A stretch of DNA of 64,000 nt from Fragilaria crotonensis (taxonomy: Eukaryota; Bacillariophyta; Fragilariophyceae; Fragilariales; Fragilariaceae). Each line of letters opens with the position of its first letter. Within the stretch, counting starts at the first letter, position 1. This document shows, one piece after another, positions 487 to 33,082 of this stretch. Where the stretch lies: contig JAKSYS010000026.1 of NCBI GenBank assembly GCA_022925895.1, positions 1-64,000 of the forward strand. Direction: 5' to 3'. A program made the translations under genes and the position numbers. The notes under the pieces are model-generated. The model ran no database searches. It was not told the DNA's origin and was given only the letters and a program-made list of their open reading frames with translations.

Positions 487-725
487 GTCCCCGCGACTCT
501 GAATTAAGTTCCTGAATCAGAGGCGAATCACACTTCCTGAACCGATCGACAGAGGCCCCGGCTACGTCGTTAACATATATAACCCTGCGACGGTCACCTA
601 CTGTTTTCGATGGACAGTTACCATTATATCGCGACTACCCAATTCGTGTCCCCGGGTGTTGGTCGTCGATTACCAGAGTATGTTATGCAACAACTCCTTC
701 ATCTTCGGTCCTGGCATTAACTTTG

Positions 726-4759: not shown

Positions 4760-4777
4760 CGCAACGGTTCTGCATTG

Positions 4778-6147
4778 TCAGGCCTTATCCAGCTTCTGCT
4801 TCTTGTGAGCGCCGCGACCGAATTCCTTCCCGGCCGCTTCATCTGCGCTTGACTCATGGTCATCATCGCCATCATTGTCGTTTCCTTTGCCAGTTTCTTC
4901 ATCTCGTTCTTCAACTCCTCCTTGATTTGTTTCTTTAAAGCGGCCACGGATCTCTTGCCTTTCTTGTCTCCCCACTCCTTAAGCTGGTCTTTTGCTCCTG
5001 GCTCAGAAGTCGGAAGATCTTTGGCGGGTAATATTTATTCTCTAACTTAAAACCCTTTGGCAACTTCCCTGCCTTCGCCGTCTTATCCGTCTTCTCACCG
5101 CTCTTCACGCCCGAAATGTTCCTTTCCTTACTTCTCTCGAGGGTTGCCCTGTTTTCCACGGTCGTCGACAGGTATTGCTGACATGCCTGAAATTGTTCAG
5201 CAGCTTGGGATCGCCAAGCACCACTGAGACGGCAGATTCCAATTTCGGATCGGTAATCCCTTGAGAAAATCAGCAACTTTCTTGGATTCGGGACGGCCTC
5301 GGTTGGATCACAATCAAGGATTTCATTGTGAGCGGTCTGGTGGACATTGATAAAATCTTGGAATTTATACTGGCGACGCGACCCACTGTAGGACGCGTTC
5401 GCGATCGACGCGTAGGCTTTGTTCTTACGTGTGATCTTGGACGCGGTGCCTTCACACTGCGTCTTCAATGCCAAGTACGCCTTCCGACCGTCCTGCGACC
5501 TCTCGAATTTCTTGATGTATGACCACCCTTCTCCGTTTACGACAAATGTCTTCAATTCCCGATAGAATCGAGGGTTATCCAATTCGTAATGTCGTCCCTC
5601 GAGTACCGTCGCTTCAATAAGGTACTCCATTGGACTTCCAAAGTCCGCTGGATCAAGAACATTCTCTGGCGCTTCCTTTCGTCCCTGGTGAGGTAAACGA
5701 GTGGGATCTTCGCAGCACTAAGGATTTGACGAAGGTAATTCTGGAAGGACTCATTCCACAATGCCCAGTTGACCAACTTCTTAAGACTGTCAGGCTTGGA
5801 TGCATCTTCGTCTTTGCTGCCTCCTTCTGTTCCTGGTATTCTTGGCACTTGGCCGTGAACTCAGGAACCTTGTCAGCTGTGAAACTTTCGGGGTTCGCTT
5901 CGAACCCGGTCCGCTTGCGCTCATCCGCCCAGAAACGGAAGCCTTTCAAGTTCTTCACTGCGATGAATGGCATCGTAACGTTGCCTGCTCCTCGCGGTGC
6001 AGATCTAGCAACACTCCTGGCAATCGAGTCGAGATCCGACTCAGTTGCGAGCATCAAGTCATTCGGGGTTGCAAATCCCTGAGCAATCAACCACGTGACA
6101 GTCGGGGCGTTAAAGCCGCATCGTTGGAGGGCAGCGTTCATGGTCGA
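4778..6147 (-). pseudogene. Copia-1 gag-like region, broken
   Basis: This is the capsid-like region of Copia-1 (minus strand), recognised by side-by-side reading with the gag of Copia-2: both start with a short M-x-x-A-L-x-x-C-G-F-N-A block and end with a charged stretch AAGKEFGRGAH. It is broken in several places and lies between the 5' leader and the protease start. Confidence 0.75.
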
Positions 6148-6544
6148 GATATCGGTTCGGTGTGGTCTTGTGTGAAAATTCCTAAAGAAACAAGCAAGGG
6201 TATACAAGGGTGAAAACCGGGAATACCAACGCCTTCAGAGTGCCAACATTTATGCCGATCGGATAATGACTTGCCTTAATCACATTTAGGAGATTTGTTG
6301 CGAATCGGTCTTTGAGAGACTGATTCGTTCCGTGCCACGGTCATTTACTTATCCGTATGGCACGTCTATCGTAGTATTGCGGTCTTTCGGGTATGAGAAC
6401 ACTCCCTACGCAATTTCTCATCAATTCCCGACGTAATCTGCTCAACATCGTTTCATCACATGCGGCCATTCTTAGCCATGATGAAATGATCAACCGGTGA
6501 TCTCCATACTACCGATCGGATGGCGCCATTCATGTCATTGAGCC

Positions 6545-6560
6545 GTTGGGTCTGATAAAC
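6545..6560 (-). promoter_or_regulatory. Copia-1 putative primer-binding site
   Basis: The 16 bases next to the 5' LTR (plus strand gttgggtctgataaac) are the same as the equivalent site in Copia-2 (22750-22765, reverse complement). Read as a tRNA, they resemble one half of an anticodon arm: stem TGGGT, loop CTGATAA, then AC. This fits the half-tRNA priming known for copia elements, but the tRNA identity is uncertain. Confidence 0.5.
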
Positions 6561-6778
6561 TGTTAATCCTACAAGTAGATCATCCTTGCAGGAAAGCATG
6601 TCTTGATTCAGTTATGAATTATCTAAAACATAGAAAAGTGAGCATTACCTTGTTCGGAGTCATCCTTCAATCCCGAGTCGTACTGTGCAGATGTAGTACC
6701 GTATAATGGTACTTGATACTTGATACATGATTCATAGCATCCTGAATGATACAGTACCGGTAGCTTGTAATATCAACA
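6561..6778 (-). repeat. Copia-1 5' LTR
   Basis: The upstream 218-bp LTR of the minus-strand Copia-1. It looks identical to 269-486 and is followed on the outer side by acag, the target duplication. Confidence 0.93.
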
Positions 6779-9700: not shown

Positions 9701-11493
9701 GACGATACAAGCACCCACCACTCATCAATGCAAAGTCATATTAACTCCCTACCACTCTGGCATCGTCGACTCCTATTCGAATACAAACAAATAGCAAACG
9801 ATGTTGAGGTATGGAGAGCTTTTCGATCAAGGCAACGACTAACCATCGCCTCCGATGGAAGTCTCAGGGAAGAAGCAGGCACTTTTGGCTGGAAGCTGAC
9901 AACGAGAAACCACCACGTTCTCTTTCAAGGGTATGGGCCAGTCGACGGACCGATCGAAATTGGGAGCTCCACTCGGAGCGAACTAGGGGGCTTTACGGCG
10001 CCACTCCTATTGGTAACCGTACTGGCGAGACACTGGGGATTGCGACATAGGTGCAAGTTTCGATGGTTGGCGGATAGCGAGGTGGCCATTAACAGAGTAA
10101 CGTTCGTCACCCGGAAAGACTACTCACCAACAAAACAGCCGGACAATAGTGACTACCTGACAACCATAACAGAACTTTTCCGAGAACTCCGTCGCCCCAT
10201 GCTCACCAAGTGGATCAAAAGTCACCAGGATGGAAAAATATCATACGACAAACTGACACCCGACGCCCGCTTGAACGTTGACGTGGACGAACTGGCCACA
10301 AATGTCACCAAAACAAAAAAGCGAAACCACGGCGAGAGACGAATCATATCCCGACAATGCAGATGAGCATATCGATCCTCAACACACGGTTTTTCGGCAA
10401 TTTAGACGAACACATACGGTACCATGTAAATGGGGGATATCTTCGTGAATACACACAATCTCGTCACAAATGGCCAGATCACGTCTGGGACATGATCGAC
10501 ATGACAGCATTTGGAAAGAACTTTAAGGCAATTCCGCTAAAACATCAACCGTCGCATGTCAAATTCATCCACAATCAACTGCCACTGGGAGACAAAAAGT
10601 ACCAACGATCAGACGTAAAGGATGAGAAATTGAAACTATGTCCCACATGCTTACTTCAGGAGGAAAACATCCATCACTTTCTGCACTGTTCCCAAAACCC
10701 AGCTCGAGGCAAAAGCATCTCAGCCATGCTTCGACCATCCTGAAAGACGATCATCCCAGTCGACCAGCCTTTGCATCTTGCGTTGAACAATATTTAACAC
10801 ACCCAGGGCAACGCGTCCACTTTCACAATGACAAACTCTCCAGCCGCCTCGACGACATCCTACAAACGGCAATCGAAGAACAGAACCTCATCGGATGGCA
10901 CCAACTACTTCTCGGATACTTATCCAAGAAGTGGCTCCTGCTTGCAGCCATGGACACTCCCAACCCCGGGAAACTGAATCTATCAGCAGGACGAAGTCGC
11001 ACACACACGGCCCTCAAAGCGATTACCCTTATGGTACGAGAAATCTGGCTTGGACGAAATGAAGTCTTACATCAACATCGAGATGAGACTGACCAAGAGA
11101 TCTACTCGATGGAATCCGCAGAGCTTCGCCACTACCACTCGAATCCAACCCTTATTCAGACCTCCGATCAACACTATTGCCGCAACATCAGCCACGTTAA
11201 CCAAACTTCTACACAGCAGACCCTCCGTTCGACGACGATGGCTTCGACGAGTTAAAACAGCGCGAGCAGCCCACTTGAAAGATGGAAAAACACAAAGACA
11301 AGTAACCCAGTACATGATCGCTATCCCGCCGACACGCGACGTCTCCACAAGACTGGCAACCCTTCCACCGGAAAACATTCCAAACAGAACACGTACCTCA
11401 AACACTACCCAGCAACGCATGACAGCCTTCTTCCCTGGACGACCCCCCGACTACCATACCAACATCCAAAATCCTTCGCCCTCTCAAAGATAG
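6779..11493 (+). pseudogene. LINE-A ORF2, right piece (RT, RNase H, zinc knuckle), frameshifted
   Basis: This continues LINE-A ORF2 after the Copia-1 insertion. Domains in order: linker (YYKEHKMVERM, 6780-7700); reverse transcriptase with FDNDASACYDR (about 8170-8200), GTGQGSGASP (about 8370-8400) and FVDDTSLGF (about 8515-8540); RNase H starting ASDGSL (about 9850) with later NVDVDELA (about 10275); and a zinc knuckle C-x2-C-x8-H-x3-C (10640-10690). The final domain ends with VRRRWLRR-like residues and a stop at 11491-11493. The frame changes about eight or nine times (near 7950, 8215, 8810, 9350, 9620, 9730, 10370, 10700, 11070), so it cannot be expressed as one protein. It is more divergent than LINE-B or LINE-C and is probably the oldest LINE here. 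Confidence 0.88.
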
Positions 11494-11578
11494 AGAGATG
11501 CCTAGGTTGGGTACCGTGTGCGTCCTTGGCAAAAGTTCCTACTAGAGGTAAACCTATATAATTCGTTTTACATTTTTT
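11494..11578 (+). other. LINE-A 3' UTR and tail
   Basis: This short 3' UTR shows, in degenerate form, the same layout as the other LINE tails: GGGTAC, a small hairpin CTT-GGCAA-AAG (11525-11535), a GAGGT block, then AAACCTATATAATTC and a T-rich end. It abuts the truncated 5' end of LINE-B with no spacer that I can see; the exact joint is ambiguous within about 11571-11579. Confidence 0.65.
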
Positions 11579-12735: not shown

Positions 12736-15700
12736 TACATCACCAAGATGCATCATCCCAGCCAACGACGATGGAGAGCAATGACAATGTGAACATGGCA
12801 GACCAGCAGCACCCGACCACCAATGAGGCGACCGCAGATCACGACGCTCACCGCCGACCAACCACAGTTCGAAAAGGAAGATATATGTCGCGAGGGGAGG
12901 ATCGACATCCACCCATCTACACGTCTCAGATTCTTCTTTTTCCATCGACCAGACCGGGGAGGATGATTCGGAGGAAGACCAGCGACACTCAGGCAAATGT
13001 TACTTTCGGTGATGCGATTATCTACAAAGCAAAAGGTTCTACCCGAGTTATGTTTCAGAACGTTAAAGGACTGACCTTCAATCAAACAGGCGATGACTAC
13101 AACTACTATATGTCATCCATGGGATCATACTCGATTGACATCTTCGGTATGGCGGAGACCAATTCCGGCTGGCAACACCCACACGTGCAGGCAAAGTTCA
13201 AGTATTGTCTACGCAAACAATTAAAACTCGGAAAAGCAGTGTTTGATCGCCGACTCAAGAGATAGATCAGCTTGCAGACAACGAAACCTTCAAGCTGGCG
13301 GATCAACACAGGTTGTAAGCGGCAATGTGACAACGACGGTGTTTGGGCCACCCATTACGGATTCAACTGGACTGGGACGATGGTGCGGCTTTACTCTAAT
13401 CGGCAAGAAGGAACTTAAATTGAGTATTCTCACAGGTTATAGGACTTGCAGTGGTTCCATTGCGTCATCACCACTAGGAAGCACCTTTCACCGAGAGTAT
13501 ACTTATTTTAAGGAGCAACAGGAGAAAAACCCGCAACCGAGACGACGTTTTCTCCGCGATCTTGGCAATCAGGTTCGGGATTTACAGCACCAAGGACATG
13601 CGATTCTCGTTATGATGGATGCCAACTCAGTATTGGAAAATGATCACCACCTCCAAGAATTCCTCGAGACCCATGATCTTAGGGACTTACATAACAACAA
13701 TCCAGCTCCCTCGACCTACATTGGATCTACCGACCGCAGGATTGATTACATGTTTGGATGTCCCAGAACCGCAGCAGCAACATGTCGTCAGGGCACACTC
13801 TCGTATTTTGAAGGACCTCAATCCGACCACAGGGCTTTGTATGTCGACCTCTTCCTTTCCCAACTGATCGGCATTGAAGCAACAGAACCAGTAATGTCGG
13901 ACGCACCCAGGAGATGGCTTCAGAGCGGTAATATGGAATCAGTTGATCTCTATCGGGAAAAAATGAAAGAGTACTATGTCAGGCACAACATGAAACAGCG
14001 GATAGATACCCTTTTCAAAACACATCATACACTTTCCCGAAAGCAAGTCCGACGTCTTTTGACAGCATGGGATGAAGACCAAGGGAGAGCGATGAGAGCG
14101 GCGGAAGAAGCGCTGGCAATAAAACCAAAGAAGTATGCGTGGTCTCCTCGACTTCGGAACGATGGCGTGATAATGAGGTACTGGAAGCTTCGGATGGTGC
14201 GGGAAGTCACTCACTCAGAAGACTACTCGACTACATTCGATCGATGGGAAAGACAAATCCAGGGTTTTGACGGCACGTTCCACCTCCCGGATCGCAACAA
14301 TATGTTGACTGTCACCGAAGTGAGACAGCGCTTGAATCAAGCTACAAAAGCACTTCGACAGACTCAGAAACGCGCGACGACGAGTAGAGTAAGAAGCTAT
14401 GAGGAACTACTTGCAACTTACGAGACCGACAAAAATCCCACTACCAAACACGAATCCCAACGACGCGCCAAGATCATGTATCGAACTATAAAAGCGGAAG
14501 CGAGCAAACGACTTTTTGGCAAACTTCGTCAGACTCTTCATCCGTCGGAACACACAAGCCTGACTCAAATACAAGTACCACGTCCAGTCGATACAAGCCA
14601 AAGAACGGAACCAGGCCAAGTCCACAACATCCTGCAACACTACGACACAGACCAGCTAGTGTGGGACACGATCATTACAAGGGAAGACATTGAAGCTCAT
14701 ATACTGAGCTTCAATCGAAGCATTTCGGGCAGCAGAATCACCATGTGGGAGCGGTATCATACACGACGCGCTAACTTTTACAAGTCTGTCAGACGAGGCT
14801 GAACAAGTTCTCCGAGGATCTATCCCAAAGGAGTGGTATGGAGATAGAACGCTCCTTCGAGAGTTCCTAGCATCATTCCAGATTCCCGACTCGGTCTTGG
14901 AAGGTAAACCAATAAACCTGGAAATCTCAAACGACGACATCGTCAAAGGTTTCACGTCATGGAAGGAGACAACAACAACATCCCCATCAGGGAGACACCT
15001 CGGGCATTACAAAGCTATGATCAAGGACCCAGCATTGTTAAACTGCTTCCGGAAATTCTTAAACATAGCGATCACACGCGGCATTGCTCCACCGAGATGG
15101 TGCAAAGCGGTGAACATCATGATTGAAAAGGACAAGGGACGGCCAAAAATAAATCGACTTCGAATAATACATCTGTTTGAAGCAGATTATAATTTTTTCC
15201 TCAAGATTATGTGGGGATCACGTTTGGTACGACGATCTGTTCAAATGAACTTGCTCAACGAAGGCCAGCATGGATCAGTGCCTGGGCGAACAACCATGGA
15301 TCCAGTGATGTTAAATCAACTAACAACCGATCTCAGTCGGGTCCTCAAAGTCAACTACGTAAGGTTTGATAATGACGCATCGGCTTGTTTCGATCGGATA
15401 ATAGTTGCCCTCGGCATGATGGCGGCTCGGAGATGCGGGATGCCAAAGGAGGCCGTACGAACGCACGCAACGGCATTACAACTGATGCAATATATGGTGA
15501 AAACGATACACGGAGTTTCATCCGACTCATACAGCGGTACTATGATGGCACCATTATTTGGAACTGGGCAAGGAAGCGGTGCATCACCGGCGGTGTGGTT
15601 ATCACTGGTGGTCATCCTCTTAAACACTTTGGAACGAGTGGTCCCGAACAGGATACGGTTCAAATCGGCAGACGGGAATATAGTACATGAACGGTTGGTT

Positions 15701-18536
15701 GATGCATTCGTCGACGATACTGCTATAGGCTTAACGGACAACGGGGACTTATCCTTGACGGCGCTTGTTCAAGCATTGGAAAAAGTGGCGCAAACATGGG
15801 AGCAACTACTACACTTCTCGGGCGGAGCATTAAATCTTTCCAAATGCTCGTGGTATGTCATGTTCTGGAACTGGCGTCAGGGTAGACCTGTACTTCAAGA
15901 GATTGACGCTGCCGATCCAGCAATCCAACTCTTTCAAGGTTCCAATCACCGGAGACCAGTGACCATACGTCGTCAATCACTCACAGCAGCCTCACGTATC
16001 TTGGGGATCTATCAGACACCACTTGGCGATTTTTCCGAGCATATCCGAGTTCTCAAAAAGAAGGCTGATCAATATGCAGGATACATCAGATCACCGACGT
16101 TGACAACGACAGACATTCGCGTTTTCCACCGGTCAATTTATTCTCCTGCGATGCGTTACTCCCTTCCTGCCATCGCAGCCGACGAGGAGGAACTGGAAAG
16201 TATCCAATCAAAGATCATTCCCACCATCGTACAGCGTTTGGGCTTCTCGTCAAAAATGTCGACAGCTATTCGTCATGGACCAGTATCTATGGGAGGTTTA
16301 AATCTTTTCGACATCAGAACGGAATGTGGGATTGAAATGATCAAATACTTCCGACACGAAGTTTATGGTAATACAAAGGTTGGCCAACTGTTACTCCTCC
16401 AATTGCAGGCATCTCAAATAGAATCTGGACTTCCGATACAACTCCTCAAGGATCCCTCCATTCAGATTGGATATTTGACACCGACCTGGATATTATCGAT
16501 GCGACAATTCCTGTCCAATCACAATATACGCATCACTTTGACGGACACATTTCAGATCGCATTGCAAGGAAAAGATGATCAATACATTATGGATCTCAAA
16601 CGACTGCAGGGATATACCACTCGACAACAGAAAGATTTGAATCTCGTTCGGTTATATCTCCAAGTGACAACTCTAGCTGAATTAGTTGACACGTCTGAGA
16701 ATGGCAAGATAGCGACATGGGCGTTTGAAGGGACCCGTCCGACAAGCTTCATGGACAACAAAGCCTGGCCGAGACAAGAAAGGCTTACTCACCAGCAACA
16801 ACGTCTGTGGAAAAGGTATATCTCGGCGCATTATTTGCGGTACGATAGATTCTGGCGGACACCACCGAGACCAACGCTACGAGATGTGAAAGAAATCATC
16901 GCCACAACGACAGCGACGGGACCAAAGGACGTTAAAGAAAAAATAAGGTCACTACCCAGAGGAAGGCGTCGTCTGCTTACACACACACGACAACACGTTT
17001 CCGATGATGTCTTGTGGGAGGAATGCCAAACAAAACAAACATTGACCATTGCAACGGACGGCGGTCTCAAAGGAAGGAAAGGGACTTTTGTTGGCTAGTC
17101 AGCACTCGAATGAAACCATTTTAGCGGAAGGTGCAGGACCAGTGGATGGGCCATTCGACGCAGCTAACTCAACACGGTGCGAGTTAGGCGGATACGCGGC
17201 ATCATTGTTATTTATCTCACTTCTTCACCATCTATGGGGCAAAAAACATAAATGCGACTTTCGATGGGTAACCGACAGCAAAGCAGCCATATCGAAGGTT
17301 GAACACCAGACGACAAAGTCACATAAGAAAATGCGACAACCGAGCAACGCGGATTATCTGGGCATCATAAAAGCTGAGACGTCGTCGATCCGAAGACGCA
17401 TTCGTCCAGTTTGGGTTAAAGGTCACCAACAGACATCTCGCAACGGTGCTCAAAACAAGGACATCATCAGGAACAATCATGTTGACCAACTGGCGACGTG
17501 GTATCGCAATCACAAATTCTACCGGCAATCAGTAGAGCACACTGATCATACCCCGGAAGCAAAGGTGACAATCTCCGTCAATGGTATACGCGTCGTTGGA
17601 CAAGAAGAAGCGACTCTGCGGTATCATATCAATGGCTACCACCTCCGACAGTATATACAATCGCGACAGAAGTGGACCAACAGAATATGGAATACAGTCG
17701 ATATAGAGTTGTTTGGACTGTTCTACCGAAAGCTTCCATCGAGAGATCAAGTGGCACACACACGGTTCATATTCGACCAGTGGCATACCGGAGAACACCG
17801 CCAACGGATCAATACCACACAAAATACGAACGTGGACAAGTGCCCATGCTGTCTACAACCGAATGAAAACACCACCCATGTACTACGATGTACGGCAAAT
17901 CCTGAGCACGCAAGTACACTATCGGCCTTCCGCAAACGGATGTCCCCTACCGACTATCATTCGGTTTTTTCGCTGTTGAAGGAAGGAGTACTATCATGGC
18001 TCGACGGGACGCCATTCTCGCCGGATCTAACGGTACATCCACGGAAATTTCATGATCGCATTCAGCAAGCTATTCAAGAGCAAGAACAGATTGGTTGGGG
18101 CAACGCCATCAAAGGGTACCTGAGCGTAGAGTGGAGATTTTTAGCTGACGAAAGCCAATACGACAACGGTCCAGATATACAGGACGGGCATGGCTTCCAA
18201 AGACTCAAAACTATATTGACGCACCTTCACAATGTGGCCATTAGCTTATGGAAGGCGAGGAATCAAGTACTACATAAATCTGGGGACCAAGAACTACAAC
18301 ACATTCGAGATCTGGAAATAGCTGAGATAAAGGAAATGCATGCACATCCGGAAAGATTACAGGCAGGAGACCGACATTACTGTGAACGATCGCTGGAGTC
18401 GATCCTTGCGAAGGGCCCGGCAACAAGACGCAGGTGGCTGAGGTACACTAAATTATCGCGAGACCGCATGAAAAAAGACGGGAAACGACAAATGTTGATG
18501 ACACACTTCTACCGTCCGTCAGATACTGTCACATAG
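12732..18536 (+). pseudogene. LINE-B ORF2 (endonuclease, RT, RNase H, zinc knuckle), frameshifted
   Basis: This is a multidomain retrotransposon enzyme. The APE-type endonuclease shows MAETNS (about 13150), MMDANS (about 13612), RRIDYMFG (13736-13760) and GPQSDHR (13814-13835). The reverse transcriptase shows FDNDASACFDR (15364-15396), GTGQGSGASP (about 15560-15590) and FVDDTAIGL (15706-15733). RNase H starts IATDGGL (17045-17070) with SELGG-like and VTDSKAA motifs, and the zinc knuckle CPCCLQPNENTTHVLRC lies near 17840-17890. Frameshifts near 13245, 13292, 14717 and 17088 split it into four long open stretches. The start is the ATG overlapping the ORF1 stop. The stop at 18534-18536 is followed by the conserved tail. 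Confidence 0.88.
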
Positions 18537-18689
18537 AGGGTACAGCACCGTTCAACTTTGGGGGATTAGGGTTAGGATTAGATGTAACCATCGCCCTCTT
18601 GAAATATGGAGTGGCCGTGGTGGGGTACACACTATGGTCTTGTCAAAAGATCGTAGACGGTGACAACCCGATAATTAGGTTATATATAT
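18537..18689 (+). other. LINE-B 3' UTR with conserved hairpin and tail
   Basis: This 3' UTR carries GGGGTACAC (about 18622-18630), a hairpin GGTCTT-GTCAA-AAGATC (18636-18652, one G-T wobble), GACGGTGACAACCC, and ATAATTAGGTT followed by TATATATAT. The same order is seen in LINE-C and LINE-D. This is the expected site for binding by the element's own reverse transcriptase. The TTAGGG-like run at 18565-18580 is too short to be telomeric. Confidence 0.7.
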
Positions 18690-19910
18690 GAGATGTTGGG
18701 TGCTGCCATTGGCATGGATTGGGTTCTTATGGACCTGTGGCCCTTCAGTTTGCAATCATTCACCACATCTGCAGATGCAAGTGATACAACGATGTTCTCG
18801 ACGTAACGATGAGCCGCTTGTTTTGTGAAGGAAATGGCACGTTTCTGTGTGTTACGTGATGTCATCTTTGCGAGGGGAATGTGGGCCAACTCAGCAAATG
18901 CACTATTCACGTTGTCGGGAACACCATGGTCGAGGATGTCTTCGCAAAGATGCAAGACCAAGTGTTTTTTGATTGTATTGTTTGTCATTCCAGTGGTGCG
19001 AGGTGCAACCGTGGCCACTAGGCGCATCAGCCACTGCACTGCAACATGTGAAGCCTTCACCTGCTTCTTTGCGATGGTGGGTTGCTTCATCCATTGGTGC
19101 CATGTTAAGAGGGACAAGATGACCAGGATCCAATCTGAAACATGGGCTTCATTCCTCAGCCTTTGCTCTTCAGGAGGTGCAGCTGCTTTACGTTTGTTCC
19201 CAACAGAGAAGATACTGTGGAAATACGTTGTATGTAGTGCAAATAACTTAACCAGGAGACACCCCGCCATCTCATGTCCCTTCAGATTTGAGCCGGAGGA
19301 GAATCCCTTTGGGAAGTTTGTGCGTGGGATGTCGCGGTCACTCTGTCTTGACAATCTACTGCCCAATGTTGCACAGAGCCGATCGTACTGTTTCAACGCC
19401 ACAGAATTGGTACCACCGGCTTGGGACGAGAAGGCCTCGAGGCAGTACTTGAACCAGCCAAGGGAAATCAGGTGCAGCATTTCACCCGGACAGGCTCCAA
19501 AAATACCTCGCTGATTGTGTTGACCAAATCGGACTTCATCAAAACCATTCTTGAGATAGTTTTGTGACAGCATCTTGAGCTGCATGGTGTTGCCATTCCT
19601 TACAAGTTTGTTGATACCTTTTGGCATACGATGGGGAAACTTTGACTTTGAGTAACCGGTCAAGTATGTTGGACATTCACAGATGCGACAAAGTTGTTGT
19701 ATCTTTGAGAAGCGTGCGGTGTAGTGCCCACAAAGACGGTCGTGACCCTCTGTGTCCCCTATGATGAAGGGCACGTACAGACAGAACACAACGGGATGGA
19801 TTGTTCTATTGTAGTGTAGATTCCATCGGAATCCCTTCCTCTGTAATCGCAAAAAACCAGATTCCTCAAGAATAAACTGGATCTGTATGTGGAGCTCATT
19901 CAGGAGATAT
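18690..19910 (-). pseudogene. Plavaka/CACTA-like transposase, C-terminal half (split gene)
   Basis: This is the second half of a DNA-transposon transposase whose first half lies at 42448-43659. Across the LINE-C insertion the reading is continuous: TWPTYLLNE then LHIQIQFILEESGF. Visible blocks are FIIGDTEGHDRLCG with a following C-x2-C (LCRICECP), GIFGACPGEMLHLISLGWFK, and a histidine-rich region KKHLVLHLCEDIL. The last block reads NTQKRAISFTKQAAHRYVENI and is matched by the copy at 59450-60727, which continues for over 200 residues more. Here the protein is cut by the LINE-B tail at 18689, so the missing end should lie left of the window. The superfamily is tentative: the D-T-E-G-H-D block resembles Plavaka/CACTA-type proteins. 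Confidence 0.72.
19895..19910. repeat. LINE-C target-site duplication, left copy
   Basis: ctcattcaggagatat, 16 bp, is repeated exactly at 42448-42463. Keeping one copy restores the transposase reading frame, so these are the insertion scars of LINE-C. Confidence 0.95.
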
Positions 19911-20057
19911 AAATAAATAGAACCTAATTATTGGGTTTTGCACCGCCGCCAAACTTTTGTCAAGTTCGGCGTGTGTACCCTGTTGCGGCCAATCCATATT
20001 GCAGGATCGCGACAACTTATCTAAGCTAGTGTACATGATGTCGCCTGGTGTCGTTTT
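19911..20057 (-). other. LINE-C 3' UTR with conserved hairpin and tail
   Basis: In the sense (minus) direction it reads GGGTACACACG, then a 7-bp hairpin CGAACTT-GACAA-AAGTTTG (plus 19950-19968), GGCGGTGCAAAACCC, AATAATTAGGTT (plus 19921-19932) and the tail CTATTTATTT. Stem bases differ from LINE-B and LINE-D while pairing is kept, which suggests selection on the structure. Confidence 0.75.
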
Positions 20058-22558
20058 TTACTCCGTGGTACCTCTGAAGAAAGACGTTATCAGCGTTTGT
20101 CTTTGTCCGTCTCTTTTTAGTCGTGCCCTCGCCAGTCGCATAAATCTTAGCCATCGTCTGCGTGATGTTGCCGATCTCCCCAATATGATGCTTAAAGACT
20201 GTTCACAGTAATGACGATCCGATGCCGGTATCAGCTCTGGGTGTTGGTACATGTCTCTGATCTCCGCATCTTCTGCGTTTCGAATGGCCTGCATATCTTT
20301 TTCGTTGGACCCATGTAAAACTTGGTTGCGAGCCTTCCATAGGGAATTAGCCAGTTCACTGAACGCCTTCAAAATTGACTTGAACCGCTTTAATCCCACT
20401 CTCGCAGGCTCCGTCTCATTATCGCCAATTCCGTAAGTCAAAAGATGCCTCCATTCTACGCTCAAAAAGCCTTTGAGTGCTTGTTCCCAACCCATGTCGT
20501 CTTGGTCTTGAAGTGCCTTCTTCAAACCTACCCGAAATTTGGATGGGAATTCCGCTATATCAATCGAAGCAGGGGTCTCCTTTTTTATCCACGCCGTAAT
20601 ACGAGACGTAATGATCTGATGAACTGGGTGATGTGTCAAAGCCGCCATTGCTGCCCGAAATGTTTTTAAACTTTTGTCATGCGATGGATTTGCCTCGCAT
20701 TGAAGTACATGCGTTGTCGTTTCCTTTCCGCCTTTGCAACATGGACACTGAAGTTGGGAGGAATCTTTCACCGCCGATACTTTATACCGTTTATCACCAG
20801 TGTGCCACTGGTCGAACATAAACTTTGTGTGTGCAATTTGGTCGGCTGGTGATAATTTCGATCGATAAGCTCCAAGGCCTTCGATGTCGACAGTGTTCCA
20901 CGTCGTGTTGCTCCACTTGTTCCTCGCCTGAGTGTACTGTCTTATGTGGTAGCCATCGATATGGTAACGAATGCATGAATCCAGTTGGCTTACGAGGCGA
21001 ATGCCGTTTATGGAGATCGATATATGTGCGCCGTCCTCATGATCAGTTCGCTCGCGGGACTGTCGCTTTCCCGATTGATCGCGGTACCATGTCGCGAGGT
21101 GGTCTGCTCGATTGTTACCGATTACGTCCTGTTGTTGACGATTGGAAATTCGTGCAATCGCCGACCCGGATTGATGTCCTTTCACCCACACTGATGTTAT
21201 TTTACTTCGGGTGCTCTTGGTGCCCTCCTTTATGAGTGCCAGTAGATCCGCATTGTCTGGTTGGTTCTGTCGTCGATGAGGGTCGTATTGTAGCTTTTTT
21301 GCCACTTTAGCGATGGCTGATTTACTGTCTGTAACCCATCTTATCCTGCATTTGTGTCTACATCCCCACATCTGCTGTAACAGAGATAAAAATAGGAACG
21401 CTGCAGCGCAGCCACCCAGTTCGCACCGTGTCGAGTTCGCGACGTCAAAAGGTCCATCAATCGGCCCTGCGCCTTCAGCTAGTACGTCATTTGACGAGGA
21501 TCTTACTTGCCAACCAAACGTACCCTGCTTTCCTTTAAGACCTCCATCAGTCGCTACTGTGATTGGACTTTTCTGGCTTAAAACCCTCCATACATTGTCA
21601 TTATCCGACACTTGTTGCAAGTGAGACAAAAGTCGTCGTTTTCCGATCGGAAGTCGCTTTATCAGAGTCGACATATCGTCAATAGGGTTCATCTCCGATG
21701 TATCTCTTATCTTTTCGTCATGTAGTTCCTTTAGTGTAACTCTCGGTGGTCGTTTCCAGAACCGACCATATCGCAGGAATCTAGATGTTATAAATCGGCG
21801 CCAAAGCCGTCGCTGTGACGCACTCGGATCAGATTGTCGCGGCCATGATGGATTGTTTATGAAACCGTCTGGTCTCGTGGCCTGTAATGCCCACTGGGTG
21901 ATTGTATTCAAGCTCGATGGATCCGTCATATCCGCTAGTGTCGTGACTTGTAGATACATGCGAACTAAATTGATATCCTTCTGCTGAGTGGACGTGTACG
22001 CGTCGATCCCCGCTGGTGCCATTATAAAAACGTCACGAGGACTGTGAAGCGACATAGATAACGTGTTAGTAAGTGTAATGGTGATATTGTGATTCGACAT
22101 AAATTGTCTCATGGATAACACCCAAGTAGGAGTGAGGTACGGTATATGGATATGGGGTTCCTCAAGTAGTGGATTTGGAATACCGGCCTCCAGTTGAGAT
22201 GCTTGCACCTGCATGAGAAGAAGTTTCCCCACTTCTGTTTGACTGTAAATGGCGTTACGGAACATCCGGATCATCTCGATGCCGTATTCCGTTCTTAAGT
22301 CGATAATTCCGAGTCCCCCCATTGATATCGGACCGTGTCGTATGGCTGTTGGTAGTTTACTGCTGAGACCGAGACGTTGTACAATTGTTGGTATAATCTT
22401 GGTCTGTATTTTCTCCAGTTCCTCCTCATCGACCGCTAAGGCAGGTAGGGAATATTTCATAGCCGGTGCGTATACTGTCTTGTGAAAAACCCGTATGTCC
22501 GATGGTTGTAATCTTGGCGATTTCAAATATCTTGAGAATTGGTCGGCTTTTGCTTTAA
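20058..22558 (-). CDS. LINE-C ORF2, C-terminal part (RT thumb, RNase H, zinc knuckle)
   Basis: This is the last 830 or so residues of LINE-C ORF2, downstream of Copia-2. It resumes with KAKADQFSRYLKSPRL, the region after the reverse transcriptase palm. RNase H begins ATDGGLKGKQGTFGW (near 21560), with the acidic residues in ATDGG, CELGG, TDSKSA and NRADHLA. The zinc knuckle CPCCKGGKETTTHVLQC (about 20700-20750) has spacing C-x2-C-x8-H-x3-C, the same in all four LINE copies. It ends with the R-R-R-W-L-R-F block and the stop at 20058. The frame is fully open. RNase H would remove the RNA template strand; the knuckle probably binds nucleic acid. Confidence 0.9.
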
Positions 22559-22749
22559 TGTTGATATTACGTGGTTGTCATGTACTACAGTACTACTGTT
22601 CCACAGTCAGTTGGCTAGTACCACAGTACGACGGTACCACGTACATGATAAAAACGGGTACTCCCACTCTTTCAGTGTTTGATCAAGTTACAAGCTATAA
22701 CTATCTTTGACATGCTTAATTAACGATTGGTCTTCACGTAGAATTAACA
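22559..22749 (+). repeat. Copia-2 5' LTR
   Basis: A 191-bp LTR matching 28881-29071. It contains repeated gtac/tac-rich motifs (tactacagtactactg, gtaccacagtacgacggtac) that may act in its promoter; that role is inferred. Confidence 0.94.
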
Positions 22750-22765
22750 GTTTATCAGACCCAAC
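22750..22765 (+). promoter_or_regulatory. Copia-2 putative primer-binding site
   Basis: gtttatcagacccaac directly follows the 5' LTR. Its complement looks like an anticodon half-arm (stem TGGGT, loop CTGATAA, then AC) rather than a tRNA 3' end, matching half-tRNA priming known for copia. The same site exists in Copia-1. Confidence 0.5.
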
Positions 22766-23167
22766 AGCTCAATGATACGAATGGCGCCATCCGATCGTCT
22801 GTAATAGAAGAACGACGACCGATCGGTTCATCATGGTACACAATATGACGAATCCGATGTTGAGCAGATATGTTGAGAATTGATTCATTCGAGTCAATAG
22901 ACTTAACGTACCCGATCGCCGATGCTCCGTTGATTTCGGGCATAAAGAATCTATGCGACATATATCAGGGTACGAAAAGCCAGCCAATAAGATAAGCGGC
23001 TTGAGACGAATCTTCTAAATACAAAACTTGGCAAGTCACTCGCATTTTTGTGAATTACCGTTGCATCAAGATCGTTGTCCAATGGTTTGATACGCCCGTT
23101 GACTCACTTTTACCCATCGTCTTGCACAATCGCCCTTCTTCGAGTTTTTGACGCCCGATCAACCACC

Positions 23168-24560
23168 ATGGAGAACGCCCTAAACCTCTGCGGTTTTAAC
23201 GCCCAGACCATCCGGTATCTCATCACCCAAGGGTTCGCCACACCAAGTGATTTGTTGCTCGCGACTGAAACGGAGCTTAACTCGATGGCAATGGCAGTTG
23301 CGAGAAACCCACCAAGAAACATGCCCCAAGTGAATATTCCATTCATGGCATTGAAGAACTTGAAGGGCCTCCGTTTTTGGGCAGATGAGATGAAGAGAAC
23401 CGGTTTCGAAGCAAACGCAGAGAACTTCACCGAAGATGATGTCACTACGTTCACGGCAAAATGCCAGGAATATAACGAGCTTAAGGACGCTGCGAAAGAC
23501 GAAGATGCTTCGAAGCCGGAAGCCTTAAAGAAGCTGACTGGATGGGCCCTCTGGAACGAGTCGTTCCAGAACTACCTCCGTCAGATCTTGAGCGCTGCCA
23601 AGATCCCTCTCATATACCTGACTAGGAATGAGAGGGAGAATCCGGAGGAGATGCTTGACCGCGCAAACTTTGGAACTCCAACTGAATACCTCATCGAAGC
23701 AACCATTTTCCGAGGACGCCATTATGACATTGACAACCCTCGGTTCTACCGCGAATTAAAATCGTTCACGGTGAACGGCGAGGGGTGGTCCTACATCAAG
23801 AAGTACGAAAGGTCTCAGGATGGGCGAAACGCGTATTTGGCATTGAAAACTCAGTGTGAAGGGACGGCATCGAAGATAACGCGAAAGAACAGAGCGTACG
23901 CTTCCATTGCAAATGCCGTATACACAGGTTCGCGACGCCAATACAAGTTCCAAGACTTCATTAACACCCATCAGACTGCTCACAACGAAATACTCGACTG
24001 TGATCCGTCGGAGGCCGTACCAGAGTCCAAGAAGGTTGCAGACTTTTTAAAGGGTATCACAGATCCAAAGCTGGAGTCTGCTGTCTCGGTCGTGCTGGGA
24101 GATGTGAAGTTGCTGAACGACTTCCAACTCTGCCAGCAGTACTTGTCCACGACAGTCGAAAACCGTGCAACCCTTGAAAAAAGTAAGGAGCGAAATGTTT
24201 CTGGAGTGAAGAGCGGAAGCGATAAGTCAGATCAGAAGGCGAAAGGCGGGAAGCTTCCAAAGAACTTTAAATTAGAGAACAAGTGGTACCCCCCAAGGAT
24301 TTACCGACTCCTCAGCCAAGAGCAGCAAGAGCAGCTCCGGACATGGAACAAGGACAAGGATAACAAGAAGTCCAAAGGGAAGAGATCGGTGTCGGCTCTG
24401 AAGCAACAGATCAAAGACGTGCTTAAAGACGAGTTGAAGCGGAAGAAAGGTGATCGGAACGAGAGCGAAGAGGAAGAAGATGATTCGAGTGCTGACGACG
24501 CCGCCGGTAAAGAGTTTGGCCGCGGTGCACATACCAAAAAAAGCAGAAGAAGGACAGTGC
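23168..24560 (+). pseudogene. Copia-2 gag-like region
   Basis: This is the capsid-like gag region of Copia-2, starting MENALNLCGFNAQ and ending in a lysine/glutamate-rich stretch with AAGKEFGRGAH. Most of it is one long open frame. The pol reading follows in a different frame with an overlap, an arrangement some LTR elements express by programmed frameshifting; whether that applies here cannot be told. Confidence 0.8.
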
Positions 24561-24582
24561 CTGACGCAACCCTACTGTTGCG

Positions 24583-27500
24583 ATGGTATCCACGGCTGTA
24601 TATTCCGTCAATTACGATACGATTAACAAAGGCGATCACCGGATGGGAAGGTGCGAGATGGATTCTCACGCCGACACATGCGTGGCCGGGGGAAATTGTG
24701 TTGTTTTGGAATATACAGGGAGGCATGCTACGGTTGAAGCATATTCACCAGATTACCCATCAAAAAGGATACCCATCGCAACAGTGGCGACGGCATACGA
24801 CTGTCCCTCTTCAAGCGCCACATTTGTTTTGATAATAAATGAGGCGCTTTACTTTGGCGAGTCACTAACCTTCTCCCTCCTCTCACCGAACCAACTTAGA
24901 GATAACGATGTGCACGTCGACGAACGTCACCGACAGCACGCTCCTGAATCCATCTTTGAGATTCACATTCCTACCCAACCTTTGACCATACCATTTGATC
25001 TCGACGGTGTTATCGCGGGTTTCGACACGCGACCGCCGACCCAAGCAGAACTCGACGACGTTGCGATACACATCGAGTTGACCTCAGACGTTGAATGGAT
25101 CCCGCACTCCTTTGCGCTCTCGCTCGTGGAGGAGCAGGACGATCCGCGGAAGAACGCGAAGATTTCAACATTACAAGCTCGGCGCTTAGAAGTCCTAAAA
25201 TCCAAGTCCAATAAACATAGAATTAAGAGTTACATGAGAACACTCGAGGCTACACAATCCCTATTTGCGGTCGAGACTGCTAACGAAGTCAGCACGCTGG
25301 ATGAATCCGATCCGATACTAAGGAGGGTCGCAGCCTTGTCGACGATCGGCGGCGAGTCCTCAACCGGCAAATCGAGTGCATACGCCATTCGAATGGGTGA
25401 TGTAACTACGGATGTGACCCCCGAGAATGTCGCTAAACGCTGGATGGTTGGAGTCGAGACAGCAAAGAAAACCCTAAACGTTACAACGCAGCGGGGTGTT
25501 CGCTCCATACCGAATCCAGCAACAAGACGTTTCAAGACTCAGATGGCGCACTTGCGCTATCCCAGGATGCGAGGGATGTTCTATGCTGACATATTGGAAC
25601 CGAAGGTGCTATCTCTGGAATCTCATCGGTACGCCCACGTGATCGGAAACGGCCGCGGTTTCGTGAAAGTCTACCCAATGGAGAGGAAGAACGAGACAGT
25701 TTATGCGCTTGACGACTTCGTGAAAAAGGTTGGAATCCCCGAAACGTTACTCTGTGACAACGACACGACGATGGAGGGATGGAGCGAGTGGAAGAAACGG
25801 ATCCGAAAATACGCTATCGATCCGAAGTACACCGAACCATACTCGCCATTCCAGAACAAGGCCGAATTGGACATTCGAGAGTTAAAGAGGATGGTTCGAC
25901 GGTTTCAGGACAGGTCAAAATCCCCAAGGCGACTTTGGAACTATTTGGTCCACCTATGCGCGAGGATAAGATCCTTCGTTGCCGGTTCTCATCCAGACCT
26001 TCACGGGCGGAGTGCTTTCGAACAAGTGCATGGCTGGACACCGGACGTATCCCTTTATGTCATGCACGGCTGGTATGAGGTCGTCGCTTTCCTTGATAAT
26101 GACAATGAACGGAAATTGGCATGTTGGCTGGGACCTGCAGAAGACTACGGCGGAGGAGACGCCGTGTTCCTACTCCCCAAGTCAGCTAAGCCTATTGTTC
26201 GCAGTACAGTTTGGTCATTGACAGTGGAGGAGAAAGCCGACAAGCGTGAAGAGATCATGGAGCTGCTGAAGTCGATAGATGAAAAGATCGGAAACGACCG
26301 AACAAATGAAGAAGTGTTCGCTGAGCTTGGCCATGACGTGCTACCACATGTCGATTTATTTGGGGATGCGGATGACGCGGACGAAGGCGAGGCTGTACAG
26401 CTTCGGGCCGACGCTGACGAGTATACCCCAGAAGCTTTCGACAGATACCTGAGTGCACAGATTGTCACCGATAGAGGAGGTGAGATGCTCCGCGGCACGG
26501 TCAAAAGTCGGAAACGCGATAGCGACGGAAAGCCGATTGGATCCTCTAATCCAAATCCGATCCTTGATACAAGGGAATATCTTGTATGCTTCGAGGATGG
26601 GACTGAAGACACATACACGGCGAATTTGATTGCCGAGTGCATTTATTCTCAGATCAATGAGAACGGTCGACAACTCTTGTTAATGCGAGAGATCATTGAC
26701 CACAAGAAGGCATCGGACGCAATATCCGAAGAAGATGCCTATTATTCAACCAAGTCTGGGCCAAAACCGAAGCGAACAACTCGCGGTTGGCAATTGCTAG
26801 TTGAATGGAAGGACGGCACGAGTTCCTGGGTGTCCCTCGCTGATATTAAGGACTCATACCCGGTACAAGTGGCGGATTATGCGGTAGCGAATGGGCTGAC
26901 ACACGAGCCTGCCTTTCGATGGTGGGTACCATTCGTTTTAAAAAAGAGAACGGATTCTGAAGAAGGTGAAAACCAAATATTGGTCGGTAACCCACAAGTA
27001 TGGACTTGAGCTTCCAAAAAGTGTTTCCCAAGCCTTAGCGATTGACAGGAGAACGGGGACTGACTTCTGGAAAAAAGCGATAGAGAAGGAAATCCGGAAC
27101 GTCTTCCCTGCCTTCGAATTCCTTGCGAACGACGACGAAAAAGTACCCCCAGGCTATCAATTCGTCGAAACCTACTTCGTCTTTGACATCAAGATGGACT
27201 TGACGAGGAAGGCGAGATTAGTCGCGAGGGGAAGTATGACAGAGGCGACAAAGGAGGACACTTTCGCATCCGTCGTGAGCAGAGACACCGTCAGGTTATT
27301 CTTTCTCCTGGCAGCGCTTAACGACTTGGACGTCCTATCTTGTGACATACAGAACGCATACTTGGCCGCACCCAACAAAGAAAAGGTGTGGACGAAGTTC
27401 TCGGACCAACTCGGTCCCGAATATGATGGTAAGAAAGCGATCATCGCGAAGGCCTTGTATGGCCTGAGATCTAGTGGACGCTCGTTCCGTGACTACCTTG

Positions 27501-28699
27501 CAATGAATTTGAGAGAGCTAGGGTTTAACTCATCGAAGGCCGACCCCGATCTATGGATGAGAAGTGCAAAGAAGCCAAACGGCGACCGTATCTACGAATA
27601 CGTTATATCGTATGTAGATGACCTTGTCTTCCAAGGGGTCGATCCAACTGGTTTCATGAGTGCGCTCGGGGAACGCTTTACGTTGAAGCCCGGCAGTATA
27701 AAGGAGCCCGATACTTATCTGGGAGCGAATGTGAAGAAGTATCGCATTCCGAATAGCGACGACCCAGATAAAGTACGATGGGCCTTTGAATCTTCGTCAT
27801 ATGTAAAAAAGGCGATTGGAGACGTCGAGCGTGAGCTCGCAGAGGCCGACATGAAACTTATGCCAAACGCGAAGACCCCGTTGGCAAGTGGGTATCGGCC
27901 GGAGCTTGATCTATCCCCCGAACTGGGGAGCAAACAGTTGAACTATTTCCAAGGGTTAATCGGGATCTTGCGGTGGATCTGTGAGCTCGGGAGGATTGAT
28001 ATCCTAATGCCTGTTTCAATATTGTCTCGGTACCTTGTATCCGCACGACAAGGGCATCTCGAGCAGACCTTCCATATCTTCGCATACCTGAAGACACACT
28101 CGCGTTCAACGATGGTTTTTGATGATACGGTGCCAACGTATAAGAGTAAGCGATTTGTTAAGTGCGATTGGTCCGAGTTCTACCCCGATGCTGCTGAAGC
28201 GATACCGACTAACATGCCTCAACCACGAGGTAAGGAGGTCTGCATGTCGTGCTTCGTTGACGCGGATCACGCTGGATGCAGGGAGACTCGTCGATCACAC
28301 TCAGGGATCATTATCTTCGTCAATCGCGCACCGATACTATGGTTTTCAAAGAGGCAAAACACCGTTGAAGCCTCGACGTACGGATCGGAATTATTGGCGA
28401 TGCGGATAGCGATCGAAATGATCGAAGGGTTAAGATATAAATTGCGGATGATGGGAGTGTCCATTCCTGATGAATGCGCAGTATTCTGTGATAACTCAGC
28501 CGTGGTCACGAATTCGCGACCAGAATCCACCCTGAAAAAGAAGCACGCCGCAATCAATTTCCATAGGGTCCGAGAGGCGATAGCTGCGGGGACCATCAAG
28601 GTTGCTAAGGAAGATACAAAATCAAATCTGGCGGACATCTTGACAAAGTTGATGCCCGGGTCCAAGATGAAGGAATTGTTAGAGAACATCCTATGGTAA
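24583..28699 (+). pseudogene. Copia-2 pol-like region (protease, integrase, RT, RNase H)
   Basis: This is pol of Copia-2 in copia order. The protease starts MDSHADTCVAGGN (about 24658). The integrase region contains DPKYTEPYSPFQNKAELDI (about 25820), the copia reverse transcriptase has SYVDDLVFQG (about 27610), and the RNase H has DADHAGCRETRRSHSG (about 28260) and ASTYGSELLA. It is largely open, with about one break in this part. The family call rests on the order integrase before RT and on the DSHADTC protease block. Confidence 0.88.
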
Positions 28700-28880
28700 T
28701 CGCAGCACGGGGACATTTACTGCGGGGACGCGACTCGGATACTGTCCAGAAACAGTAGATCAGTGCTGGGTTTATGGTTAAAGCAACTGGTCGAAGCCTC
28801 TGTCTCGGAGCCCTCATAGCTAGCTTGCGCACTGGGATGCTACGCCTTCGAGTAACGATGTTTCTCGAAGTCGCGGGGAC

Positions 28881-29071
28881 TGTTGATATTACGTGGTTGT
28901 CATGTACTACAGTACTACTGTTCCACAGTCAGTTGGCTAGTACCACAGTACGACGGTACCACGTACATGATAAAAACGGGTACTCCCACTCTTTCAGTGT
29001 TTGATCAAGTTACAAGCTATAACTATCTTTGACATGCTTAATTAACGATTGGTCTTCACGTAGAATTAACA
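28881..29071 (+). repeat. Copia-2 3' LTR
   Basis: A 191-bp LTR matching 22559-22749, preceded by the purine-rich tract tcgcggggac and followed by the ttaa duplication. Confidence 0.94.
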
Positions 29072-32000
29072 TTAAGAACTGATACGTGATCGTGAAAGTC
29101 TCCTATCGGATTTTGATGGACCCCAAGAATCCTCGTTGATTGTGTGAGATCCTGCCGCTTGATAGTAACTGGTGTTGCGCTTGACCCTTGTGTCAGATGT
29201 ACCTCCGGATCAGATGATGATATATCTCGTAAGTGCGGTCTGCCATTCTTCCAATCCCATATCATCGCATACCACGAACATTTGCTCAAATTTAATGCTC
29301 CGCCAGAAAAATGAAGCAGCTTTTCCCACGTTTGGGCAATTGTTTCAAGGGAGGACACAAGTTGATCTATGGATCTCGATCCATCGTCGGTGAAACCAAG
29401 AGCTGTATCGTCCACGAATGCATCTACTAACCTATTATGGACCAGCGTTCCATCCGGCGATCGAAAACTGATGCGATCTGGAATGATTCGATCAAGAGTG
29501 TTCAATAAAATAACCACGAGAGTAAGCCACACGGCGGGAGATGCACCGCTGCCCTGGCCTGTTCCAAACAAGGGTTCGAATGGAGTTCCACTGTATGATG
29601 TTTCTGAAATTCCATATACCGTTTTCACAGTATATCGCATGAGCTCCAACGACTTAGCATGTGATCGGACCGCGTTCTTTGGCATACCACACCTACGCGC
29701 TGCCAACATCCCTAAGGCAACAATAATTCTGTCAAAGCACGCCGAGGCATCGTTGTCGAATCTTGCGTAGTTGATCTTGAAAACTCTGCACATATCTGTT
29801 GTCAATTGATTTAGCATGATGGGATCCATGGTAGTCCGCCCAGGTACCGAACCATGTTGACCTGGATTCAATAAATCCATATGAACCGCTCTTTGAACCA
29901 GTCTCGACCCCCACATAATCTTTAAAAAGAGATTGTAATCAGCCTCAAATAAGTGGATGATCCGAAGTCGATTGATTCGAGGTTGTCCGTGATCTTTTTC
30001 AATAAGGACGTTTACAGCCTGGCACCATCGTGGAATTGAGATACCTCGTGATATGGCAATGTTGAGAAACTTGCACATACAGGTTAGAAGTAGAGGGTCT
30101 TGGATTAGCGCCTTGTAATGTCCAAGATGACGCCCTGATGGAGACGTTGTCGTAGACTCTTTCCATGATTTAAATCCTTTCTTTATGTCATCCTCTGAGA
30201 GTGAGGCGGAGATGCTATCGATTGATAACACTGTCTCTGGGATTCTGAACGATGCCAGAAATTCTCTTAGCAGAATATTGTCACCGTACCACTCGGTTGG
30301 TACTTCGCCGTATAAGAGTGTCTCCGCTTCCGGTGATAGGCTCGTGAATGTCAACGCATCATGAATGAGACCATGGCCACAAGGAGAATCAGCTGCTGCT
30401 CGAAAGGCTTCCTTATTAAATCGGACAAGATGTTCCTCAATTTGCTTTCGCGTGATTACAGTGTCCCAAATGATGTTCTCCGGAGCTGTGTTGAGTGTTT
30501 CGTGTACTTCTCCTGGTTTGGTCTCTTGAACAGAATTTATATTGCGCGGTATTTGTATCCGAGACAGAGCTGTGAATTCCGATGGTTTGACTACTGACCG
30601 AATTTTGCTATGAAGCGCTTTTATTTCTTCTGACTGAATTGTTCGCTTGACAATCTGGTATTTCCTTTTGGACTCGTATTTGGTGAATTCGTTACTGTCG
30701 TCTGCATACTTTGCTAACAACTCATAGTAGCATGTAGACCGAGTGACTGTTGCTGACTTCTGTGTTGCTCTAAGATCCCGAGTAGCCTGGTTTAGACGTT
30801 GCCGAACGGTTTCGATGGGAATATATTGTTCTTTCTCTGGAAGTCGAAACGATCGATCCTTCGCCTGTATTTGTCGTTCCCATCTATCGAAGGTCGCTTG
30901 ATAATTTTCTTGATATTTTAGTTCGCGAAGTCGCAGTTTCCAATATCTCATGATAACTGCACTGTTTCGAAGGCGAGGCGACCATTGATATTTCTTCGGC
31001 CTGATTGCCAAAGAGTCTTCTGCCGTCTTCATAGCCCGTCCTTGATCATTGTCCCACGACATCAATATTGTTCGTACCTGTGATCTCGTCATGGTTTTCT
31101 GTGTATTGTACAGCCGGTCTATCCTCTCTTTCATGTTGTGTTGCTCATAATACTTTCGCATGGATGCCAGATATCTTTGCACCGTTTCCGGATTGCCACC
31201 CTTGAGCTGTCGTCTGCTTGCGTTGGTCATAGGAAGGTCATCGACTGAAATCCCGAATAATTCATTGAGATCAATGTCGACATATAGTCCACGATGATCT
31301 GATTGTGGTCCTTCGAAATATGACAACGTTCCTTGTCTGCTTACAGCCTCTTTCGTTCTTGTACAACCTAATATGTAATCTAGTCGACGGTTCTTGGCTC
31401 CTATGAATGTCGATGGTGCTGGATCTAAATGATGTAGGTCGTGTAAATCATTAGAGTCCACGAACTCCTTGAAGGAGTTATCCGATTCCAGTGTGGAATT
31501 TGCATCAATCATAATCATGACGGAATGGTCGTTTCGTTGCAGTTGTCGTATTACACATGAGAGATCGTCAAAGAACCGTTTCCTTGGATTTGGGCGCACA
31601 TCACCTTCATTTCTGAAATGTGCATATTCTCGATGAAACGTGCTTCCTAGCGCAGCCGTGTGTATAGATCCCGGGCATGATCGATAGCATGTCACAACGC
31701 TGAATTTCTGCTCTCTTTTCCCCATTAGGCTAAAACCAATCCATCTACCGAGGCCTGATGGATCTGTGATTGCCTTACCGTGAACTGATGTTGTAATATT
31801 GCCTTGTACGACTTGAACCGTTCCTCCAGCCTGAAAAGTTTCCGCTTCTGATAAAGGATCAATTACCTCGCTCGGGTATCCAAAGACTGTTTTGCCATAT
31901 TGAAATTGTCGCTTTACACATGCCTGGAAATCCGATTGTAGATGCTTATGTTGCCATCCAGTATTCGTCTCTGCCATCCCGAAAATGTCGACCGAATACG

Positions 32001-32928: not shown

Positions 32929-33082
32929 CACTCCCCCATTGTAAGCCATAGCATGCAATGAGCAACAGAAGTGTATCTTGAAGGATAAGAACTTCAGGGG
33001 GCCGGGGGTATCCACGGGGCACCATAGTGACCCATGAGGCGGCGAACATGACGATGATGAAGCGTGGGCCCAAGCGATTTCG

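Follow-up and report, generated by a model that had tools for sequence, protein, structure and literature searches.

The window, a 64,000-nt stretch of contig JAKSYS010000026.1 of the diatom Fragilaria crotonensis, carries the LINE copies LINE-A, LINE-B, LINE-C and LINE-D and is one part of the 62.1-Mb eukaryote assembly (881 contigs) that was scanned. All copies analysed came from this one genome. Its diatom identity is supported by silicon transporters: of 19 matches, 18 exceeded the curated cut-off, the best having E 4.0e-193, and 14 control genomes yielded no match above it. A single open frame of 1456 aa with three silicon-transporter domains was found on contig C97 (29749-33762).

LINE-B lies on the forward strand and consists of an ORF piece with an endonuclease-like domain (13243-14802; matched by Exo_endo_phos_2 with E 0.053, which does not reach the curated cut-off), an RT ORF piece (14897-17098) whose translation contains what we take to be RT motifs, and the C-terminal part of ORF2 (17049-18536), which stops 86 nt before the downstream hairpin described below. 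As in other non-LTR retrotransposons an RT domain was detected in the group, with RVT_1 matched in two of nine family members (best E 4.6e-7). LINE-B itself gave no Pfam RT match even at E 5-10, an RT alignment compared with PDB profiles returned no RT and only chance matches (seed lectins, E 0.52-0.56), and the AlphaFold2 model of the LINE-B RT was unusable (mean pLDDT 35.7). LINE-C and LINE-D lie on the reverse strand. The RNase H and C-terminal part of LINE-C (20058-22526; RNase_H at E 5.1e-5) ends in QTLITSFF (20076-20099) plus five residues, and that of LINE-D (48832-51402; RNase_H at E 3.6e-4) ends in QTSIQSFF (48847-48870) plus four; neither RNase_H match reaches the curated cut-off. 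The RT part of LINE-C (29074-30213) has 72% identity to the LINE-B RT, the endonuclease and RT part of LINE-D (51664-54603) has 60%, and LINE-A has 56% and 53% in two matched stretches. The ORF1 protein of LINE-D gave a single match against PDB profiles (E 0.44).

The RT and 3' parts of LINE-C are separated by a nested LTR element (22559-29071) with identical 191-nt LTRs (22559-22749 and 28881-29071). Two further pairs of direct repeats, 99-100% identical, are probably the LTRs of other elements: one of 300 nt, approximately 6.8 kb apart (32517-39640), and one of 226 nt, approximately 6.3 kb apart (261-6778). The window also holds an ORF with a weak Plavaka transposase match (42349-43776, reverse strand; E 1.2e-5, just under the curated cut-off) and a tandem repeat with a spacing of 9 and 27 nt (62725-63025).

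The original prediction described one hairpin with unlike but still pairing stems near the 3' end of LINE-B, LINE-C and LINE-D, with the loops GTCAA, GACAA and TAAC, a degenerate form in LINE-A, and an AT-rich tail. Direct reading of the three copies bore out the stems, the loops and the tail after TAATTAG. The place of each hairpin was also right, although the quoted positions cover its inner part only, and the flanks GGGTACAC and GGTG-CAA-ACCC, which had been taken as merely fixed, pair too. The complete hairpin, here called HP2, is built of GGGU closing with ACCC, a 1x3 internal loop, CAC/GUG, a second small loop and an apical stem of approximately 9-10 bp under a terminal loop of mostly 4-5 nt; ACCC is followed by NN-UAAUUAG. 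HP2 together with NN-TAATTAG was read at 18623-18678 (forward) in LINE-B, 19980-19924 (reverse) in LINE-C and 48779-48725 (reverse) in LINE-D. In LINE-B the hairpin (18623-18669), with a 10-bp apical stem, is followed by the tail NN-TAATTAG-GTTATATATATG (18670-18690); in LINE-C the hairpin (19933-19980) is followed by TAATTAG and TTTA repeats (19910-19932); and in LINE-D the hairpin (48736-48779) is followed by TCAA-TAATTAG-GTTTTATATA (48715-48735). All three hairpins were matched by a covariance model, and those of LINE-B and LINE-D by a sequence pattern as well.

The signal does not consist of one hairpin. A second covarying hairpin, HP1, which had been missed earlier, lies directly upstream of HP2, in most copies with one spacer nucleotide between them, and a single covariance model covers both. 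HP1 is built of a 5-bp basal stem, a C.C or C.U mismatch, GC/GC and a variable apical stem; the mismatch was present in 40 of 47 parsed copies, two of the 40 (L039, L104) in another register. LINE-B HP1 (18587-18621) was placed by a model match at 18587-18679 (92.9 bits) and by the parse of its near twin L009, LINE-C HP1 (19982-20016) by a match at 19923-20016 (87.0 bits) and LINE-D HP1 (48781-48808) by a match at 48724-48808 (74.4 bits). Taken alone HP1 is weak, with z below -1.64 in 26 of 47 copies, and in 40 of 47 HP2 exceeds the HP1 region in stability. The degenerate form in LINE-A proved to be homologous but diverged: HP1, HP2 and tail together (11472-11566, forward) scored 33.6 bits (E 1.1e-5), with AATTAGGTT replaced by AATTCGTTT and with many pairs broken or non-standard.

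Across the genome the exact pattern GGGTACAY-N20-34-AACCY-N2-4-TAATTAG, which is blind to copies cut inside HP2, had 181 matches compared to none for a reversed-pattern control. Loops and apical stems vary between LINE families on a constant hairpin frame, and within the window the stems differ between LINEs whose RTs share 53-72% identity with LINE-B. By eye, the tails after TAATTAG consist in most loci of TA, TTA, TTTA, TTTTA or TTTTG units (2-5 nt) in varying number, not of poly(A). Of 20 places with the 3' strand and no exact 5' motif (from the first 100 of 160 tail matches, with C310, C335, C391 and C241:124117 left out), 17 retain a variant HP2 5' strand, most with HP1-like sequence upstream. 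No hairpin was detected in six of the first 100 loci (L013, L037, L053, L054, L070, L071), of which L070 nevertheless has a variant HP2. No Rfam family was found in the window at the gathering score, and an Rfam search of the LINE-B tail and 10 loci gave only unrelated weak matches (E up to 10). A viral contig set scanned with the HP2 pattern gave 13 matches of 47 nt each.

To measure covariation, 38 distinct 3' ends, drawn from 53 representatives of 96 loci, were aligned with MAFFT by sequence alone; six HP2-only copies, eight copies with HP1 parsed in another register and L114 were left out, a choice that favours the structure in HP1. In this set 95.0% of cells were paired compared to 74.6% after shuffling, double changes occupied 205 cells compared to 64.3, and versions of the structure slid along the alignment paired in just 37-47%. 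The model matched all nine of the dropped ends, L022 twice, and the ten matches, in an alignment fitted to the structure, were 92.9% paired (79.4% shuffled) with 29 double changes (9.4 shuffled). HP2 alone, on all 53 unselected representatives, was 95.0% paired compared to 79.3% shuffled. Later loci outside the model (67, being the 80 loci L124-L203 minus 12 near-identical copies and the truncated L194) were matched in all cases but one, L201; their fitted alignment, which contains seven HP2-only copies and near relatives of model rows, was 92.5% paired with 344 double changes compared to 112.2. Pairing was retained in most copies examined. Under a tree-aware null (60 simulations, with the tree built from the same short alignment) 3 of 4560 column pairs were significant and all three lay inside the structure (2-37 in HP1; 49-73 and 51-71 in HP2). 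If testing is confined to the 25 proposed pairs, 15 would pass at 0.05, the remaining ten being invariant, nearly invariant or variable on one side. Chimeras of 5' and 3' halves from different copies lost pairing: the HP1 score was 12.8 for real hairpins and 8.5 for chimeras, the best mean in 2000 permutations was 9.6, and 12.9% of chimeras for HP1 and 9.0% for HP2 reached the median of real hairpins. G-U cells exceeded A-C cells (88:18 and 175:30; 79:17 for HP2 on the unselected set), so that the structure belongs to the sense-strand RNA. The 3' end of these LINEs is a selected two-hairpin RNA structure. Significant covariation among genomic 3' ends, as the original prediction required, was found.

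The copies have the insertion hallmarks of non-LTR retrotransposons, namely 5' truncation and target site duplications. Duplications of 14-18 nt were identified in seven long copies other than HP2-only ones, with the upstream repeat 584-2846 nt before HP2; the survey covered 41 long loci (four of them HP2-only insertions and one a false hairpin), and in the rest none stood more than 1 above the shuffled maximum. A 10-nt repeat at L072 was rejected as a target duplication since it lies inside the element.

A second class of insertion consisted of HP2 and its tail alone. Among 157 hairpin loci with flanks (158 minus one false match, L011), 15 had a direct repeat before HP2 that recurred after the tail and ended 0-11 nt from HP2. 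Merging three twins (L177 with L121, L021 with L015, L056 with L055) left 12 independent events (L014, L015, the second hairpin of L038, L042, L055, L075, L121, L128, L133, L143, L174, L181), in each of which an exact repeat of 12-19 nt stops 0-8 nt short of HP2. These solo insertions are approximately 60-70 bp long and are spread over several hairpin families. L202, with the duplication TAGATGGCGA, is a probable thirteenth outside these counts; L201 and L194 appear truncated inside HP2, without a clear duplication. Within 110 nt upstream only two more duplicated insertions (at least 11 exact nt) were found, L107, which reaches to the 5' foot of HP1, and L052, with its end at 59 nt, so that 12 of 14 ends fall within 9 of 111 positions (chance 6e-12 under a flat distribution, a crude null). 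Agreement with the nearest LINE family extends over at least 2 nt before GGGT in 11 of the 12 solos, whereas 2000 control draws averaged 0.83 and never exceeded 4; in two of the 12 the match runs for 5 nt. The position of the duplications and this match indicate that the copied DNA takes in the whole of HP2 and ends close to the first HP1 pair; microhomology may contribute to this agreement, because in events with no gap the matching letters lie in duplicated target.

The solos look like extreme 5' truncations and not like a transcribed family. They resemble SINEs with a LINE-derived tail in their short non-coding body, LINE tail and target duplications, but start at HP2 itself: with the 5' duplication ending 0-8 nt from HP2 in 12 of 12, they have no space for an internal promoter or a head derived from tRNA, 7SL or 5S. 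A SINE origin was also considered for the group of L061 and rejected, as the LINE C-terminal motif QTAITEFF is present in seven of its eight copies, whose stop lies 57-60 nt before HP2; L069 alone has QTAITKVF instead. L122 and L123, longer upstream stretches of this group, were used only as database entries for the RT comparison.

Recognition by the element's own RT, as originally proposed, is probably the best explanation of the two-hairpin end, as in stringent-type LINEs, with which these copies share a conserved 3' stem-loop under structural selection and a short terminal repeat in place of poly(A). We give a probability of roughly 0.8 to the reading that in a large group of diatom LINEs this end is the module for 3' recognition and initiation, with a predicted grip by ORF2. 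In the sense RNA HP1 and HP2 are adjacent, mostly one nucleotide apart, and lead into NN-UAAUUAG and a short tail of AT-rich repeats. The element's own ORF2 protein would most likely grip HP2 and probably HP1 as well, binding that would select the RNA, and would set the tail on the nicked target, where target-primed reverse transcription would start. The solo insertions with target duplications are compatible with initiation at this 3' end. HP2-only insertions do not prove that HP2 suffices, because a longer RNA may be bound and copied in part.

Few LINEs, and to our knowledge mainly those of animals (fish L2, R2, human L1), have had their 3' recognition worked out in detail. R2 inserts in rDNA, and its RT reads a structured 3' UTR RNA for target-primed reverse transcription. 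A structured 3' RNA is thus common to R2 and the diatom LINEs, but the diatom copies lie in many unlike flanks, some with duplications of 12-19 nt, and not in a single fixed rDNA site, and their endonuclease looks APE-like in the weak match noted above. The fish stringent-type LINEs (UnaL2, ZfL2-1 and ZfL2-2, of the L2 clade) likewise have a 3' stem-loop beside a short terminal repeat, and in the excerpted text of one report the ZfL2 stem-loop is required for retrotransposition and is bound by ORF2 between EN and RT (PMC4176376). The same excerpt describes one recognised stem-loop per element (PMC4176376), whereas the diatom LINEs have two in tandem, and they differ further in their host, in an ORF2 with a weak RNase H match and in the UAAUUAG and AT-repeat tail. 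The tandem-hairpin tail is a variant of the stringent-type LINE tail, while the set of hairpin-only insertions was unexpected. In open-licence literature no matching report was found for covariation in LINE tails, nor, among the matches listed (titles and abstract starts), for diatom or protist LINE 3' ends or for truncation at hairpins. The more than 180 natural diatom copies, in which stems and loops vary freely within a constant frame, offer a panel for mapping the features the protein reads, and the hairpin-only insertions supply a precise in vivo cDNA end adjoining HP1.

Since the copied part of the solos ends at the foot of HP1, this hairpin is probably held by the protein and at times halts the enzyme; given its lower stability, structure by itself is unlikely to bring about the halt. 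The two hairpins may accordingly have separate jobs, a division that we put forward tentatively, at somewhat below even odds: HP2 and the tail would be the start site and HP1 a protein-held gate, which when closed would end the cDNA at the first HP1 pair and leave a hairpin-only insertion with target duplications. The solos, arising repeatedly across families, would then amount to a naturally made footprint of the enzyme on the RNA it copies, and would be the shortest target-duplicated LINE-type insertions known to us.

The solos could equally derive from a processing product, a short RNA cleaved between the two hairpins, with no stop of the enzyme at HP1, and to this origin we assign about the same chance as to the gate. 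Cutting would leave the solos with the same sharp end immediately before HP2, and the low stability of HP1 makes a simple structural stop odd. Against it, the end of L107 lies at the 5' foot of HP1, which is what a general stopping of the enzyme at hairpin borders would produce, and the 5-nt family match in two of 12 solos suggests that the end may vary, although microhomology could also explain this match.

Another alternative, which we regard as unlikely, is that the hairpins are signals of RNA processing or stability (3' end formation, export, protection from decay) that serve transcript health and not RT recognition. They do occupy the very 3' end, where other transcripts have poly(A), and structural selection alone leaves the binding partner unspecified. 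A host machine, however, would favour constant stems, whereas here the loops and apical stems differ between families and only the frame is kept; the copied part of the solos stops exactly at this module; and known LINEs with similar 3' hairpins use them for binding by ORF2, as far as the excerpted report describes (PMC4176376).

Shared ancestry alone, with the pairing a founder effect among young relatives, is very improbable. The copies do share a single genome and LINE group, and shuffling overstates significance among related sequences, but three pairs of the structure remain significant under the tree-aware null, the slid structures fall far below the real one and half-swapped chimeras lose pairing. 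A DNA-level palindrome or cruciform with no role in RNA is slightly less probable still: DNA-level processes can keep inverted repeats, but the approximately 5 to 1 excess of G-U over A-C in the sense reading and the conserved internal loops and C.C mismatch argue against it.

A further feature was identified at the C terminus of ORF2. A PIP-box-like motif of the form Qxx[ILM]xx[FY][FY], within 35 codons of the stop and 160 nt upstream of HP2, was present in 90 of 157 untruncated loci compared to 2 of 3140 shuffles and none of 157 reverse strands; some of the misses reflect flanks that were too short. In the window it is QQRMTAFF in LINE-A (11410-11433, forward; 19 aa before the stop), QMLMTHFY in LINE-B (18489-18512, forward) and the near-terminal QTLITSFF and QTSIQSFF of LINE-C and LINE-D. 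The PIP consensus is given as Qxx[I/L/M]xxF[F/Y] in the excerpted part of one source (PMC5371812), and an excerpt of another places the PIP box of human L1 ORF2p between EN and RT (PMC10830420). The consensus is common to human L1 and the diatom LINEs, in which the motif lies instead near the C terminus, and this resemblance in sequence suggests PCNA binding by the diatom ORF2. These LINEs may also reach PCNA, by way of a motif whose position differs from that in human L1; no matching report of a C-terminal PIP box in LINEs was found among the matches listed for open-licence literature (titles and abstract starts). Between this motif and HP1, in the 3' UTR of LINE-B, lies a telomere-like TTAGGGTTAGG (18566-18576, forward) that occupies the same place in related loci, and telomere-like motifs were present upstream of HP1 in 36 of 142 loci compared to 20 of 2840 shuffles.
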